From Actinomycetota bacterium (GTDB lineage Bacteria; Actinomycetota; Actinomycetes; Nanopelagicales; Nanopelagicaceae), in contig JAPLAY010000056.1 in NCBI GenBank assembly GCA_026393035.1, positions 1 to 54,676 on the forward strand: 54,676 bases of DNA, in the 5' to 3' direction. Of this stretch, positions 5,320-54,422 are shown piece by piece; the first letter of the stretch is position 1; every line of letters begins with the position of its first letter. The position numbers were made by a program, and so were the translations under genes. Under the pieces are notes generated by a model. That model did not search any database. It saw only the letters and a list, made by a program, of their open reading frames with translations, and was not told the DNA's origin.

Positions 5320-5953
5320 CTTGCAAAGGCAGATTCCAATATTGAAATTGTTGAACTAGATGTAACGAATCAGAAGAGCGTTGATGCACTTGCCGCAAAA
5401 TTGGCTGATAAGCCAGTCCGTATTCTCGTTAACAATGCTGGAGGCGCATTTGATGCGGCGCCAATCGAAGATTCGGATCCAGAAATTTGGGCCAAGGGCC
5501 AAGACTTACGAAGTAAACGTAACTGGGGCAGTACGAGTTACCAAGGCAATGATCCCATTGATGAAGAAACATGGCGAGGGCCATATTGTTCTAATGTCAT
5601 CAACTGCCGGTCGCATCGCATATGAAAATGGTGGAACCTATGTCGCTGCAAAGCATGCAGTCGCTGCTATCGCGGGAACTTTGCGATTGGAATTAAATGG
5701 TCATCCAATTCGAGTCACTGAAATCGCGCCAGGGATGGTTAAGACTGATGAATTTGCCGTCACTAGGTTTGCCGGCGATAAAACTAAAGCGGCGAAAGTT
5801 TATGAAGGTGTCGAAAAGCCACTTACAGATGCCGATATTGCAGAAACAATCCGCTGGGCAGTGATGCTGCCATCACATATAAATATTGATTTACTAGTGG
5901 TTCGCCCAGTTGCCCAAGCGGCCCAACATAAAGTTCACCGAGTTATTAAGTAA
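5320..5953 (+). pseudogene. Short-chain dehydrogenase/reductase pseudogene
   Basis: The remains of an SDR oxidoreductase lie in two frames. The first piece (5320-5496) reads LAKADSNIEIVELDVTNQ...RILVNNAGGAFDAAP...EIWAK, including the NNAG motif. The second (from 5504) reads TYEVNVTGAVRVTKAMIP...IVLMSSTAG...YVAAKHAV, including the catalytic Ser and YxxxK. They are separated by a 7-base tandem duplication that shifts the frame; removing one copy restores a continuous SDR sequence. The N-terminal dinucleotide-binding part (TGxxxGIG) is absent: the first frame is closed upstream by TAA 5317-5319 and abuts the EamA gene. With both lesions it cannot make a normal SDR. An assembly error is the alternative. 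Confidence 0.85.
5489..5503 (+). repeat. 7-base tandem duplication causing a frameshift
   Basis: GGCCAAG occurs twice head to tail (5490-5496 and 5497-5503). Deleting one copy joins EIWAK directly to TYEVNVTG in one frame, the expected SDR sequence. This is typical of a replication-slippage duplication. Confidence 0.85.
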
Positions 5954-19469: not shown

Positions 19470-19585
19470 CAAGGTCACGAGTTCCAGGTTTTAGCCCCGG
19501 CTTACTGGACGGCAACCCTCCACCACGGTGGGGTGCTCCGGGTGAAGACCAGGTCAGTTGCAAATTGCAATTGGCAAGCGTGGGT
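19470..19585 (+). ncRNA. SAM-IV-type riboswitch
   Basis: The core matches the actinobacterial SAM-IV / SAM-I-related aptamer: GGTCACGAGTTCCAG, AGCCCCGGCTTACTGG, CGGCAACCCTCC, CGGTGGGGTGCTCCGGGTGA and AGACCAGG occur in the expected order. GGTC (19473-19476) can pair with GACC (19547-19550) to close the aptamer, and a further hairpin segment follows to about 19585. It lies directly before metY-metX, methionine genes that S-adenosylmethionine would be expected to shut down. SAM-IV is preferred over SAM-I because of the extra 3' structure and the actinobacterial context. Confidence 0.85.
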
Positions 19586-19602
19586 AACGAATAAAAAACG
19601 CT

Positions 19603-50358: not shown

Positions 50359-52281
50359 TTACCCCAAAGTAATTGTGACAGTCGAGCCTGGCTTCACAGC
50401 GGCCCCAACCTTTGGCGAAATATTTGTCACTGTTTTCTTCTTAGCGATATATCGGTAGTCGACTTTGAATCCAAGATCTTCAAGAATCTTGGTTGCCGCC
50501 AGTTTGCTAAGTGAATAAACATTTGGAATGAAGATCTTTGAAGGCCCCTTAGAAATTACCAACGTAATTTTCTCACCTTTGGCAACAGTCGTAACGTCAC
50601 CTGGAGTTTGCGAGATGATTTTTCCGATTGGCACGGTATCGCTGAATTCATATTGACTGCTAACAATTAGCCCAGAAGAAGTTAATTCATTTTGAGCTTC
50701 ATCACTGGTTTTACCTTGGTAATTAGAGAGCGCAACTTGCTCGATACCTTTGCTGACAATTAAATCAACGGTGCTATCTTTTCGAACATCGGATCCACTT
50801 GCCGGACTTCCATCAATTAATAGCCCAGCTTCTTGGCTTGCACTAAATTTCTCAGTGACCCGACCGACTTTGAGTTTAGCTTCATTAATTGCTGTTGTTG
50901 CCGCTTCTATAGTTAGCCCAGCTAAATCTGGAACTTGGATGCGCTCTTTTCCTTTAGAGATAATCAGATGAACGGTCCCCGCTACTGCGACTTTGCCACC
51001 ACCTGCGGGATCGGATGTAATCACCTTTCCCTTAGCTACATCTTCGCTAAATAGTGATTCCGCAACATCAACCTTTAAGCCGAGGGCACCAACAGTTTTC
51101 GCGGCCTGGGTTTGTGTCATTCCAGCCAGAGATGGGATTGCAATCTTGTTACCTGCACCAGAAACAAAGTACCAACCACCAACTACTAGTGCGAGCAAGA
51201 TTGCTAGGGCGATGGCACGATTTCGTTTGACTCGTTTCGATAATTTGCGCTTGCGTTTTGTCTGGCTGGTATTTGTCTTTGAAGAATTGGTATTTTCGCG
51301 CATGGGATTGCTCCTCTTTAGATCTATCTGGGTTGTAACACTTTTTAAAATATCTAATTTGCTTCGCTTCTTCTTTTCAATCTTGGCTCGGGGAATTGGA
51401 ATATCAAGTTCAAGGCTCATCTGACGTCGCTTTGGATCCAATTTGGCTAAGACGGCTAGGACTTGTTCTTGCATTGCGCCAGCATCTTTATAGCGTTTAT
51501 CTGGATTATTTGCCGCTGCCTTTAAAACAATTTCATCTAATTCGGGTGGGACTGAAGGTGTAATCGAAGATGGGGCTGGAATATTTTCATTCACATGCAT
51601 GTAAGCAATTTGAATTGGGCTTTCACCATCGAAAGGCTTCTTACCGGTCAGCATTTCAAATAGCACTATTCCTAACGAATAGACATCGCTGCGGACATCA
51701 GAAACACCGCGTTGAACTTGCTCTGGCGAGAGGTATGAAACGCTCCCTAAGATCACACTGGATTCAACTGTGAGCGTTGATCCGAGCTCGGCCCCTTTTG
51801 CTAATCCAAAATCGGCAATCTTTACGCGACCGTCTTTTGAAATCAAGATATTTTCTGGCTTGATGTCACGGTGAAGAATTCCATGTTTATGTGCCGCGGT
51901 CATAGCGCTTACTACTGGAGCAAAGTATCGAAGGGTTTCGGTTGCGCTTAGTGCACCTTGATCACTTATTACATCGCGAAGCGTGAATCCTTCGATGTAC
52001 TCCATAACAATAAAGACTGCTGGAACTCCGCCTTCATTCCAACCTTGATCTTGAATCGCAACAATATTTGGATGGGAGAGAGTCGCAGCCGCTTTCGCTT
52101 CTCTTATAAATCGATTTACAAAATCTTCATCGTTTGCAAGATGTGGATGCATAATCTTTACCGCTACTTGGCGATCTAGTCGTAAATCAAGTGCGTGATA
52201 AATAGTGGCCATGCCGCCAGATGCCACCACACGTTGGAGCTGGTAGCGATTATCGATTAATTCGCCGGTTAAGTCGGACAC
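50359..52281 (-). CDS. PASTA-domain Ser/Thr protein kinase (PknB type)
   Basis: A membrane kinase that senses cell-wall fragments and controls growth and division. It has 640 residues. The kinase domain (about 10-275) has ASGGMATIYHA, Lys42 in VAVKIM, HRDIKPENI and IADFGLAKG. A basic juxtamembrane stretch precedes one helix (about 353-372), then four PASTA repeats run to the end (starting near IAIPSLAGM, IQVPDLAGL, VALSNYQGK and IFIPNVYSL). It starts with GTG, with TAAGAT (52288-52293, minus strand) six bases before. It stands apart from the usual pbpA/rodA/pstP cluster. Confidence 0.93.
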   Translation of the reverse strand: MSDLTGELIDNRYQLQRVVASGGMATIYHALDLRLDRQVAVKIMHPHLANDEDFVNRFIREAKAAATLSHPNIVAIQDQGWNEGGVPAVFIVMEYIEGFTLRDVISDQGALSATETLRYFAPVVSAMTAAHKHGILHRDIKPENILISKDGRVKIADFGLAKGAELGSTLTVESSVILGSVSYLSPEQVQRGVSDVRSDVYSLGIVLFEMLTGKKPFDGESPIQIAYMHVNENIPAPSSITPSVPPELDEIVLKAAANNPDKRYKDAGAMQEQVLAVLAKLDPKRRQMSLELDIPIPRAKIEKKKRSKLDILKSVTTQIDLKRSNPMRENTNSSKTNTSQTKRKRKLSKRVKRNRAIALAILLALVVGGWYFVSGAGNKIAIPSLAGMTQTQAAKTVGALGLKVDVAESLFSEDVAKGKVITSDPAGGGKVAVAGTVHLIISKGKERIQVPDLAGLTIEAATTAINEAKLKVGRVTEKFSASQEAGLLIDGSPASGSDVRKDSTVDLIVSKGIEQVALSNYQGKTSDEAQNELTSSGLIVSSQYEFSDTVPIGKIISQTPGDVTTVAKGEKITLVISKGPSKIFIPNVYSLSKLAATKILEDLGFKVDYRYIAKKKTVTNISPKVGAAVKPGSTVTITLG

Positions 52282-52290
52282 GCTGAAATC

Positions 52291-52848
52291 TTAGACAGTG
52301 CCCTGCCCACTTAAGCGGTAATCCGCGCGCTTCTTGGTCGCTTCTTTCTCAAAGTGAGCGCCCTGAAGAAGTAGAAAGGCGGGCATGAATTGGGCCACGG
52401 CCGGCCCATCTCGTTTGATAACCCGTTCTAAACCTACCTCTGGCAGCACTTCAATCCACAAAGCCAGTGAGGCGAAATCTCTAATTTCTCTCTGACCAGA
52501 TCCCACGCCTTCAAGAATTAAATACTTTGGAGCTGGAAGTTTAATTTCAGGAGCTAGGTTATTTTCTAGCCAGTTGAATGGGGTGAAACTGATTTGATTT
52601 TCAACTTTTACTTCAAGCAAAATTTCGCGCAATTTCTGAGTTAATTTTGGAGTAAGGGTTGAACCCCACCCTTCATATAGATCATCCATGTGAATCGTGT
52701 AACAATCTTCGAGTTCTAGCGCTAACTCTTTAGCAAGAGTCGTTTTGCCAGAACCCGCGGGACCATCAATTGTAATGACAATACTCGTCCCACACTTTGC
52801 AGTAAGCGAAGGTAGAACTTCTTTAATTTGTTGAAGTTGCTGACTCAC
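52291..52848 (-). CDS. P-loop kinase, uridine-kinase-like, in the thiamine-riboswitch operon
   Basis: A 185-residue protein with Walker A GPAGSGKTT (about 29-37), a DD pair in YTIHMDDLYEGWGSTLTP where nucleoside and vitamin kinases place substrate, LILEGVGSGQREIRDFASLALWIEVLPE, and a C-terminal lid with basic residues. The fold is that of uridine kinase-like P-loop kinases; the substrate is unknown. It overlaps the 3' end of the PnuC-family gene and shares its TPP riboswitch, so thiamine or a thiamine precursor is a reasonable substrate guess. The GTG at 52848 is chosen; an ATG at 52878 would overlap more. Confidence 0.75.
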   Translation of the reverse strand: MSQQLQQIKEVLPSLTAKCGTSIVITIDGPAGSGKTTLAKELALELEDCYTIHMDDLYEGWGSTLTPKLTQKLREILLEVKVENQISFTPFNWLENNLAPEIKLPAPKYLILEGVGSGQREIRDFASLALWIEVLPEVGLERVIKRDGPAVAQFMPAFLLLQGAHFEKEATKKRADYRLSGQGTV

Positions 52849-53413
52849 GTAGCCATCGCTTCCATCCACCAACTGCAATCAATACAAAGATGAAGTAGAG
52901 AATTGCTGTCAGGTATTGCTTACCATGCCAATATTGGTAGGTGTACACGGTATCTACGACAAACCAAACAATCCAGTTTTCATAGCGCTGAATAACCATT
53001 AGCAATTGTGCAATACAACTTCCAACAAAGCCAAAGGCGTCGGTCAACGAGGCAGCGGCCCCAATCTTTTTAAGTATCGGATATAGCGAGAACCATGCAA
53101 CTAAATAGGCTGCGCCCCAGATTGCAACATCACGTTTTGTAAGTCGTTTTGGTTCTGCACCTTTAGGCCCCCAGCCAAACCAGCCAGCAACCGCACCTGC
53201 TATGAATATGAATTGTAAAAAGCCACTTGCATAATATTTCCATTGAAAAAATAGTGCAGCGTAAAGTAGAGATGAAATACTCCACCAAGGCCAAGTCTTA
53301 CGCGGTCCGTAAACTCCAAGCCAAACACCAATAACTGAAGTTATAAAGGCCAGTAATTCGAGAAGCGATAATTTATAACCCCAAGCGGTAAAAACTGTAA
53401 CCATTAAATTCAT
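52823..53413 (-). CDS. pnuT: PnuC-family vitamin transporter, predicted PnuT (thiamine)
   Basis: A 196-residue membrane protein with about seven helices and the PnuC-family segment QRYENWIVWFVVDTVYTYQYWHGKQYLTAILYFIFVLIAVGGWKRW. PnuC proteins facilitate uptake of unphosphorylated vitamins that are then trapped by a kinase. A TPP riboswitch directly upstream argues for thiamine (PnuT) rather than nicotinamide riboside. A GGGG-containing ribosome site lies between the aptamer and the ATG. A kinase gene overlaps its end. Confidence 0.85.
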   Translation of the reverse strand: MNLMVTVFTAWGYKLSLLELLAFITSVIGVWLGVYGPRKTWPWWSISSLLYAALFFQWKYYASGFLQFIFIAGAVAGWFGWGPKGAEPKRLTKRDVAIWGAAYLVAWFSLYPILKKIGAAASLTDAFGFVGSCIAQLLMVIQRYENWIVWFVVDTVYTYQYWHGKQYLTAILYFIFVLIAVGGWKRWLRESATSTN

Positions 53414-53427
53414 CGATTAACCCCTTT

Positions 53428-53515
53428 CCAATTCGCATTACCGAACTGGTCCTACGGTCGATCTGAATTTCAGATCCTCTCAGCCAATTTCTCGGCTCCC
53501 GTCAATAACGAACGC
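53428..53515 (-). ncRNA. TPP (THI-element) riboswitch
   Basis: On the minus strand the conserved blocks occur in order: GGGAGCC, GGCTGAGAGGATC, a variable hairpin, GACCGTAGGACC, then CGGTAATGCG. TTCGT (forward 53508-53512) can pair with GCGAA (forward 53432-53436) to close the aptamer. The CTGAGA and GGTAATGC blocks are the hallmark pyrimidine- and phosphate-sensing regions. The ribosome site GGAAAGGGG is immediately 3' of the closing helix, so control of translation is likely. It lies between crtB and the PnuC-family gene. Confidence 0.87.
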
Positions 53516-53522
53516 TAGCAAA

Positions 53523-54422
53523 TTAACGAGCGGCGCGGGCCCTTAGCAGCGCTGGAAGTGCAACTTTAATTCGGCGCCAAGTCGAAGTTTTCGCGCGCTT
53601 CTCGAATATTTGATAATCAATCTTCTCTACTTCATCAACAATTCCGCAATAAAGTTCGGAAGCCGCTTCGATACAGGCCTGAGATTCTGGCGATAGCAAC
53701 TTAATTCCAGGTGCGGCCTCTTTCTGCAATCTACGTACTCGAGCAATTTGTTCTTGCAGTGCTGCTTTGATCTGTGGCGTTAGGGTTCGCTCTTCCAACA
53801 TTTCATGAGTAACGCCGTGCGCAGTTAGTTCTTGAATCGGAAGATAAATTCGGCCACGGTCCAAATCCTCGCCAACATCGCGGATGAAGTTCGCTAATTG
53901 AAAAGCGGTACCAAGCTTTTCAGCAGCTACATACGCATCGGGAGAGGAAGCGCCAAGGATTGGAACCATCTGAAGTCCAATTACTGATGCCGATCCATAA
54001 ACATATTCCATCAGATCATCAAAGCTTTGATATTCGCTAACTGTTAGATCCATCGTCATAGATTTCATAAAAGCTTCAAAATGTGCAACTGGAATCTTGA
54101 AACGATTTACGGTGTCGACCAGCGCGCGCCCAATGTGATCATGGCTAACTCCACTTTTAATATCTGCTAAAACTTGATTGCCCCAAGTTGAAAGCTCGAC
54201 TGCTTTCTCTTCGTCAGTTAGCGTTGAATTTAAATCATCAACTATTTCATCGGCATATCTTGCAAAGCCATAAAGTGCGTGAACGAATGGCCGTTTTGCT
54301 GGTGGTAGCAGAAGTGTTGCAAGGTAATAAGTTTTGCCATGTAATGAATTGAGCCTTTTACATTCAGCATACGAAGTCCGTAGATCTGGGTCGATTATTC
54401 CAGCAGCATCCAACTCATTCAT
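53523..54422 (-). CDS. crtB: Phytoene synthase CrtB
   Basis: Condenses two geranylgeranyl diphosphates to phytoene, the entry to carotenoids. It has 299 residues. The two Asp-rich sites are YADEIVDDL (about 57-65) and ANFIRDVGEDLDRGRIYLP; FYLATLLLP-like (YYLATLLLPPAKRPFVHALYGFAR) opens the protein. The ATG shares one base with the crtI stop (TAATG), so the pair is coupled. In planktonic actinobacteria carotenoids can supply retinal for rhodopsins, but no rhodopsin gene is in this window. Confidence 0.95.
   Translation of the reverse strand: MNELDAAGIIDPDLRTSYAECKRLNSLHGKTYYLATLLLPPAKRPFVHALYGFARYADEIVDDLNSTLTDEEKAVELSTWGNQVLADIKSGVSHDHIGRALVDTVNRFKIPVAHFEAFMKSMTMDLTVSEYQSFDDLMEYVYGSASVIGLQMVPILGASSPDAYVAAEKLGTAFQLANFIRDVGEDLDRGRIYLPIQELTAHGVTHEMLEERTLTPQIKAALQEQIARVRRLQKEAAPGIKLLSPESQACIEAASELYCGIVDEVEKIDYQIFEKRAKTSTWRRIKVALPALLRARAAR

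Follow-up and report, generated by a model that had tools for sequence, protein, structure and literature searches.

A riboswitch-linked PnuT transporter and a candidate thiamine kinase of the uridine-kinase type in Nanopelagicales

What is the function of a P-loop kinase whose gene follows a thiamine-related riboswitch and a pnuC-type transporter gene in a member of the Nanopelagicales? The locus is contained in a stretch of DNA of 54,676 nucleotides (contig JAPLAY010000056.1), which was analysed as a whole and is called the window here. A first-pass annotation had proposed that the locus is a module for uptake and trapping of thiamine, and that its P-loop kinase may be a thiamine kinase not described before. 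The genome comparisons described below support this proposal, and from sequence evidence it would appear highly probable that the enzyme is a thiamine kinase, forming TMP from thiamine and feeding ThiL, in a thiamine uptake-and-trap operon.

The aptamer, the pnuC-family gene and the P-loop kinase gene were found in the sequence and by profile scans to be consecutive on the minus strand, with the two genes overlapping, as had been described in the first-pass annotation. The aptamer, a divergent THI element resembling TPP riboswitches, is located at 53409–53512 (-) (RF00059, 36.6 bits, E 4.6e-6) and includes a shortened P4-P5 hairpin, the pyrophosphate-sensing part, at 53428–53449 (-), which was recognized from the predicted fold and from covariation in 27 PnuT-linked aptamers. 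Immediately 3' of this hairpin is the motif AAAGGGG (53421–53427 (-)), read as a putative ribosome-binding site, with a spacing of 7 nt to the ATG of pnuT. The pnuT gene (52823–53413 (-)) encodes a PnuC-family transporter of 196 amino acids (PF04973, E 1.3e-35; TIGR01528 above cut-off). The gene for the PRK06547-related P-loop kinase, proposed here as a thiamine kinase on the basis of profiles and an AlphaFold2 model, extends over 52291–52848 (-) from a GTG start. In the list of open reading frames it was given as 52291–52878 with a TTG start; the GTG at 52848 is favoured by relatives, several of which have ATG or GTG at that column, and results in an overlap with pnuT of 26 nt, versus 56 nt from the TTG at 52878, which is a possible alternative start. 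Two neighbours served as synteny anchors only, namely a crtB-like gene of the squalene/phytoene synthase family upstream (53523–54422 (-); PF00494, 2.3e-69) and a pknB-like gene for a PASTA Ser/Thr protein kinase downstream (50359–52281 (-); PF00069, PF03793).

The order crtB, THI element, pnuT, kinase, pknB was observed in the window and in the loci of its genus. PnuT is encoded directly upstream of the kinase in 20 of the 22 loci of the genus that gave a long match to the kinase, one of the 20 being partial at a contig end; of the remaining two, L016 is broken by a contig end and L023 (genome G005) is truly without PnuT. The two genes are likewise adjacent in the PnuT loci read from further genera of this family (11 of 11), and the pair was also present in a contig of Candidatus Nanopelagicales (L129). 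Within the genus the kinase is less conserved than the adjoining genes, which speaks somewhat against a function as thiamine kinase.

When the entire window was scanned, RF00059 remained below its gathering score. A focused covariance search gave a match at 53409–53512 (-) covering model positions 1–105, so that the aptamer named in the first-pass annotation was recovered at full length, although its 36.6 bits fall short of the gathering score, 54.3. The pyrimidine-sensing core (P2, P3 and CUGAGA) is present, and CTGAGA was invariant in the alignments A3 and A5. No other match to RF00059 at E ≤ 10 occurred in the genome of the window (82.7% complete). Among 20 relative loci scanned, 17 contained a match at the same place, with 33–44 bits, and the three others (L023, L024, L026) are also without PnuT. 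A chance RNA match was rejected since the aptamer recurs at the same place in relatives, and the low score is for the same reason ascribed to divergence. With stricter Infernal filters aptamers were found in at least 99 of 206 genomes of the order; this number is a lower bound, since such filters lose weak aptamers, including some from genus members which were matched in the focused scan. All 20 aptamers of the order above the gathering score are located in genomes without PnuT.

The product of pnuT exceeded the cut-offs of PF04973 (123.4 versus 27.3 bits) and TIGR01528 (65.8 versus 42.45 bits), and the THI-type aptamer in the leader of its gene places it in PnuT, with the caveat that the aptamer is divergent and that control by it is a prediction. 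Kang et al. (2017, PMC5301498) described four acI genomes in which a pnuC gene is preceded by a THI element, and proposed the gene product as PnuT; nearly all enzymes of thiamine de novo synthesis and salvage were stated to be missing in acI. To judge from the part of that article which was accessible, its importer and riboswitch are the same pair as here, very probably from the same lineage, and its accessible text mentions neither an adjacent kinase nor "thiL". The pair itself is already known for acI; the assignment of the kinase and the short aptamer were not found in the open-licence literature.

Only P-loop families were among the Pfam matches of the kinase, e.g., AAA_18 with an E value of 5.1e-7; the TPK domain PF04263 and an APH-type (ThiK-like) domain were not among them. 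The best NCBIfam match was PRK06547 (NF005115; E 1.6e-25), a model which is named "hypothetical protein" and carries no function, and its cut-off of 173 was not reached with 89.5 bits, a point against the reading as thiamine kinase. This cut-off was passed by the YkoE-linked proteins of L128, L149 and L163 and by the unlinked one of L153, but not by those of L148, L098 and L024. Matches to uridine-kinase models were weaker; the kinase gave 25.6 bits with the equivalog model for the uridine/cytidine kinase udk (TIGR00235; cut-off 220.3). NRK1 was one of the proteins matched in sequence by the kinase profile. The AlphaFold2 model (mean pLDDT 88.5, pTM 0.86) had as nearest solved folds uridine/cytidine kinases (3asz, TM 0.67) and phosphoribulokinases. 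The assignment to the P-loop uridine-kinase type and not to the TPK fold, as made in the first-pass annotation, agrees with these Pfam matches and with the predicted fold. Besides the P-loop, W71 and W103 were invariant in 38 of 38 rows, comprising 21 sequences of the genus and 17 YkoE- or ThiB-linked ones; both were also present in all 32 unlinked close relatives and in 8 of 11 distant ones. It is a guess that they might hold thiamine. No paper on PRK06547 or on a kinase of this kind was found in the open-licence literature.

To determine the thiamine gene content, one set of 206 genomes from the order, each with a completeness of 80% or more and 108 being of high quality, was searched for the kinase, PnuT, ThiL, ThiE and the catalytic domain of TPK. 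The kinase was found in 196 genomes (105 of the 108 of high quality), PnuT in 182 (96/108), ThiL at E ≤ 1e-30 in 186 including that of the window (103/108), ThiE in seven (5/108) and TPK (PF04263) in none (0/206 and 0/108). The kinase and PnuT are widespread in genomes devoid of TPK, a co-occurrence for which the first-pass annotation had suggested a survey, and an ordinary TPK elsewhere in the genome, which would have counted against the proposal, was not encountered. Matches to PF04263 in nine other families of the class were pieces of 33–38 residues in frames of 394–604 amino acids, possibly from SteA-like proteins, in which such pieces occur, and were not counted as TPK. The control genomes of Corynebacterium glutamicum and Escherichia coli had the same pattern, namely no match to PF04263, with ThiL and ThiE matched; E. 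coli uses ThiK (YcfN). The presence of ThiL without ThiE or TPK implies that another enzyme is needed which makes TMP from thiamine. ThiL was not detected at E ≤ 1e-30 in 20 of the 206 genomes (5 of the 108 of high quality, including G137 at 99% completeness), a point against the proposed route. In genus g26, eleven of the kinase matches listed span one or two stop codons, the open frames having 164–171 amino acids (e.g., G085, G098, G106); probably the match extends upstream of a shorter N-terminus.

The pathway could then operate as follows. The THI element in the pnuT leader would lower expression when thiamine compounds are plentiful. PnuT, judging from its family, should admit thiamine by facilitated diffusion, and the kinase would use ATP for conversion of thiamine to TMP, which could not leave the cell. 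ThiL, encoded elsewhere in the genome, would convert TMP to TPP. The kinase would thus do the work of ThiK of E. coli with a P-loop fold of the uridine-kinase type, and it would replace ThiE as the source of TMP.

Genomes which possess ThiE provide a useful contrast. The kinase is missing in five of the seven ThiE-positive genomes (all four of genus g20 and one of g22), and in five of 199 ThiE-negative ones, which are 81–86% complete and include G015, where PnuT ends at a contig end; the anti-correlation had a Fisher p of 1.7e-6, calculated with genomes treated as independent and based on a contrast from two genera only. The other two ThiE-positive genomes, G209 and G215, have both ThiE and the kinase, a point against the proposal; ThiC is present in both, and ThiM and ThiD of known folds were identified in G209. 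In the kinase-less genomes G050 and G056 (L096 and L097, respectively), the position directly upstream of pknB is occupied by thiE, which is on the opposite strand, followed by a TPP riboswitch and by thiO and thiG, and in G050 crtB is on the other flank of this stretch. The genes of G050 were named by family tests (TIGR02352, 6e-98; PF05690, 2e-103; thiE above cut-off), those of G056 by similarity and the ThiE match; between thiO and thiG is a gap of the size of thiS. Other genera have pnuT and the kinase at this site, and the locus gives the impression of having changed in place between synthesis and import of thiamine. Adjoining thiE in G050 is a gene for an Rv2175c-like DNA-binding protein (L096:5612–5965 (-)). 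A second TPP riboswitch in g20 (L095 in G050, 5518–5626 (-)) precedes a permease gene of the cytosine/purine/thiamine type (PF02133), perhaps an importer of HMP.

The 24 genomes of the order without PnuT, four of which were identified by subtraction, were instructive with respect to the importer. In 12 of them (L080–L090, L092) a TPP riboswitch precedes a ThiB-like gene, and 11 of these have a ThiP-like gene as well; all 12 have kept the kinase. Two of the ThiB-like proteins were tested and passed the thiamine-binding subfamily TIGR01254 and not the cut-off of the thiB equivalog; the other assignments are based on similarity. In G215 the riboswitch precedes a YkoE-like gene (PF09819, the match on which the name YkoE is based). 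Five are the ThiE-positive, kinase-less genomes mentioned above, and no importer was identified in six (G096, G103, G105, G136, G157, G174). In the ten PnuT-less kinase loci which were read (G005; L098–L106) the kinase gene is directly before pknB. The presence of the kinase in genomes with a ThiB importer and without PnuT indicates that it is associated with import of thiamine in general and not with PnuT in particular.

Beyond the order, at least 80 relative loci were obtained among named genomes, 71 of them with a kinase-length match; nine loci (L189–L197), matching only over 24–31 residues around the P-loop, were left out of the 71. The neighbour queries came from this order, and distant importers could thus be missed. 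A TPP riboswitch, searched with a model from 27 aptamers, was present at 18 of the 71 loci, in all cases upstream on the kinase strand at a distance of 0.66–3.2 kb; these 18 occurred in 390,382 upstream bases, versus none in 386,505 downstream bases of the 71 loci. Twelve of the 18 contain a YkoE-like gene, three ThiB-ThiP and three PnuT, the last three resembling the order itself. Among the hosts of the 15 loci which are not PnuT-linked are Cryobacterium, Leifsonia, Agromyces, Aurantimicrobium, Leucobacter, Corynebacterium and Mycolicibacterium; in Corynebacterium lubricantis the order is riboswitch, YkoE-like gene, double ATPase, CbiQ-like permease, kinase. From C. glutamicum, a TPP-riboswitch operon with cg1227 has been described (PMC3890552). 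Two more loci have a YkoE-like gene and no riboswitch match. A weak PnuC-like match at L123, downstream and on the other strand, was not counted. A family found mostly away from thiamine genes had been regarded in the first-pass annotation as evidence against the proposal, and the result is divided: 51 of the 71 relatives had neither a TPP riboswitch nor a thiamine gene within the flanks examined (about nine of the 71 having less than 4 kb upstream), which argues against a thiamine kinase, while the thiamine linkage of the other 20 involves importers of three unrelated kinds, and a TPP riboswitch precedes 18 of these 20. In a tree of the kinases, the YkoE- or ThiB-linked proteins and those of this order formed two sister clades; unlinked proteins occurred in both. 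Fusions of the kinase domain to a chorismate-binding (PabB-like) enzyme were found in Sinomonas (L131:5839–8028 (+)) and in genome G026 (L044:6051–8159 (-)); an aminotransferase-IV gene is near the fusion of L044, and L165 (Arthrobacter) is of similar length. The fusions indicate that the wider family is not uniformly related to thiamine, and another role for it is possible.

The predominance of relatives without thiamine neighbours, together with the PabB fusion and the uridine/cytidine kinases as closest solved structures, could suggest that the enzyme is a housekeeping protein, e.g., a nucleoside kinase, which merely resides in the operon. The linkage to PnuT, to YkoE-like proteins and to ThiB-ThiP, mostly riboswitch-led, in several actinobacterial families and in two sister clades, and the absence of the kinase from five of the seven genomes with ThiE, make this quite improbable. 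The enzyme could also be a thiamine pyrophosphokinase with a novel fold which forms TPP directly in one step, since a TPK is a frequent partner of thiamine importers and 20 of the 206 genomes are without a ThiL match at the threshold used. However, ThiL is retained in 186 genomes (103 of the 108 of high quality) though ThiE is gone in 199; that TMP is made is the reading which makes most sense of this retention. The fold, moreover, resembles uridine kinases, which transfer a single phosphate, and direct pyrophosphorylation is accordingly given very little credence.

Phosphorylation of a thiamine precursor (HMP or hydroxyethylthiazole) imported by PnuT, an option left open in the first-pass annotation, is equally hard to credit. 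The substrates of PnuC-family proteins vary, and kinases for HMP and thiazole are common salvage enzymes; yet ThiE, which is needed for joining the two halves, is missing in 199 of the 206 genomes, and the binding proteins in the 12 PnuT-less genomes with a ThiB-like importer belong to the thiamine family TIGR01254, as tested for two and judged from similarity for the rest. In addition, G209 has ThiM and ThiD and nevertheless keeps this kinase. A thiamine kinase feeding ThiL would thus remain the preferred assignment.

Several known systems are comparable. In thiamine uptake of the Bacteroides type, PnuT acts with a thiamine pyrophosphokinase; common to both is a PnuC-family importer controlled by a TPP riboswitch, with trapping of the vitamin by phosphorylation, whereas in the order studied here TPK is absent (0/206), the trap would consist of a thiamine kinase and ThiL, and P4-P5 is shortened. 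The proposed route from thiamine via TMP to TPP is that of ThiK (YcfN) followed by ThiL in E. coli, but ThiK has a fold of the aminoglycoside-phosphotransferase type and the kinase of the window is a P-loop protein of the uridine-kinase type. PnuC with nicotinamide riboside kinase is likewise a combination of a facilitator and a P-loop kinase; here, unlike there, a THI element, a thiamine context and a different kinase family are found. If the assignment is correct, a conserved family which is at present called "hypothetical protein" could be given a role, what appears to be a gap in the salvage of thiamine by TPK-less actinobacteria would be filled, and the near-total loss of thiamine salvage in acI would become a working import route of PnuT, kinase and ThiL.

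The aptamer itself deviates from ordinary TPP riboswitches. The internal loop between P4 and P5 helps to hold the pyrophosphate of TPP. In the predicted fold of the aptamer from the window this loop of RF00059 is missing, and P4-P5 forms one uninterrupted helix of 8 bp. A short P4-P5 stem was present in all 33 PnuT-linked aptamers that were read, 19 of them from the genus of the window and 14 from elsewhere in the order. The distance from the AC of J2/4 to the UAAU loop was 10 nt in 33 of 33, versus 11–12 nt, with a longer two-part stem kept, in all 33 aptamers linked to ThiB, YkoE or biosynthesis genes; four of the 66 (L017, L088, L090, L092) were measured by eye and are included in these figures. 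Predicted folds gave the uninterrupted 8-bp helix in 26 of the 33, and the other seven have a mismatch (L021), a bulge (L112, L116, L173), a small internal loop (L110, L117) or seven pairs (L129). Alignment of 27 of the 33 PnuT-linked sequences showed the named structure to be paired in 96.4% of cells. Pairs changed on both sides numbered nine, versus 4.0 in shuffles, three of the nine being within the short P4-P5 helix; further pair types were 20 versus 17.8, a value reached by 41 of 500 shuffles, which is weak and was one of five measures.

In comparison with canonical TPP riboswitches (RF00059), the PnuT-linked aptamers have kept the CUGAGA core, P2/P3 and the UAAU loop, whereas P4-P5 is shortened and the usual internal loop is lost. 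The designation as TPP riboswitch, which the first-pass annotation had used, therefore holds with respect to a THI-type aptamer in the leader of pnuT and should be restricted insofar as this is not an ordinary TPP aptamer. Since P4-P5 has been described as the pyrophosphate-sensing stem (in the accessible part of PMC11751092), the ligand of the PnuT-linked aptamers could differ from TPP, although we consider this less likely than not; the short aptamer may still bind TPP through a rebuilt site. A combined interpretation would hold that PRK06547-type proteins are a general actinobacterial thiamine kinase with a fold unrelated to ThiK and TPK, and that the PnuT aptamer is a distinct class, derived from the TPP aptamer, in which the loop for pyrophosphate is lost and unphosphorylated thiamine or TMP is sensed; taken together, this is put forward with slightly more reserve still. 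Uptake would in that case be controlled by the substrate or product of the kinase and not by the finished cofactor. The short form, which accompanied PnuT wherever it was encountered, provides an example, open to direct experiment, of a vitamin riboswitch whose ligand may have changed. Elsewhere in the window, a SAM-IV riboswitch at 19473–19586 (+) (107.5 bits) was the only Rfam match above the gathering score.
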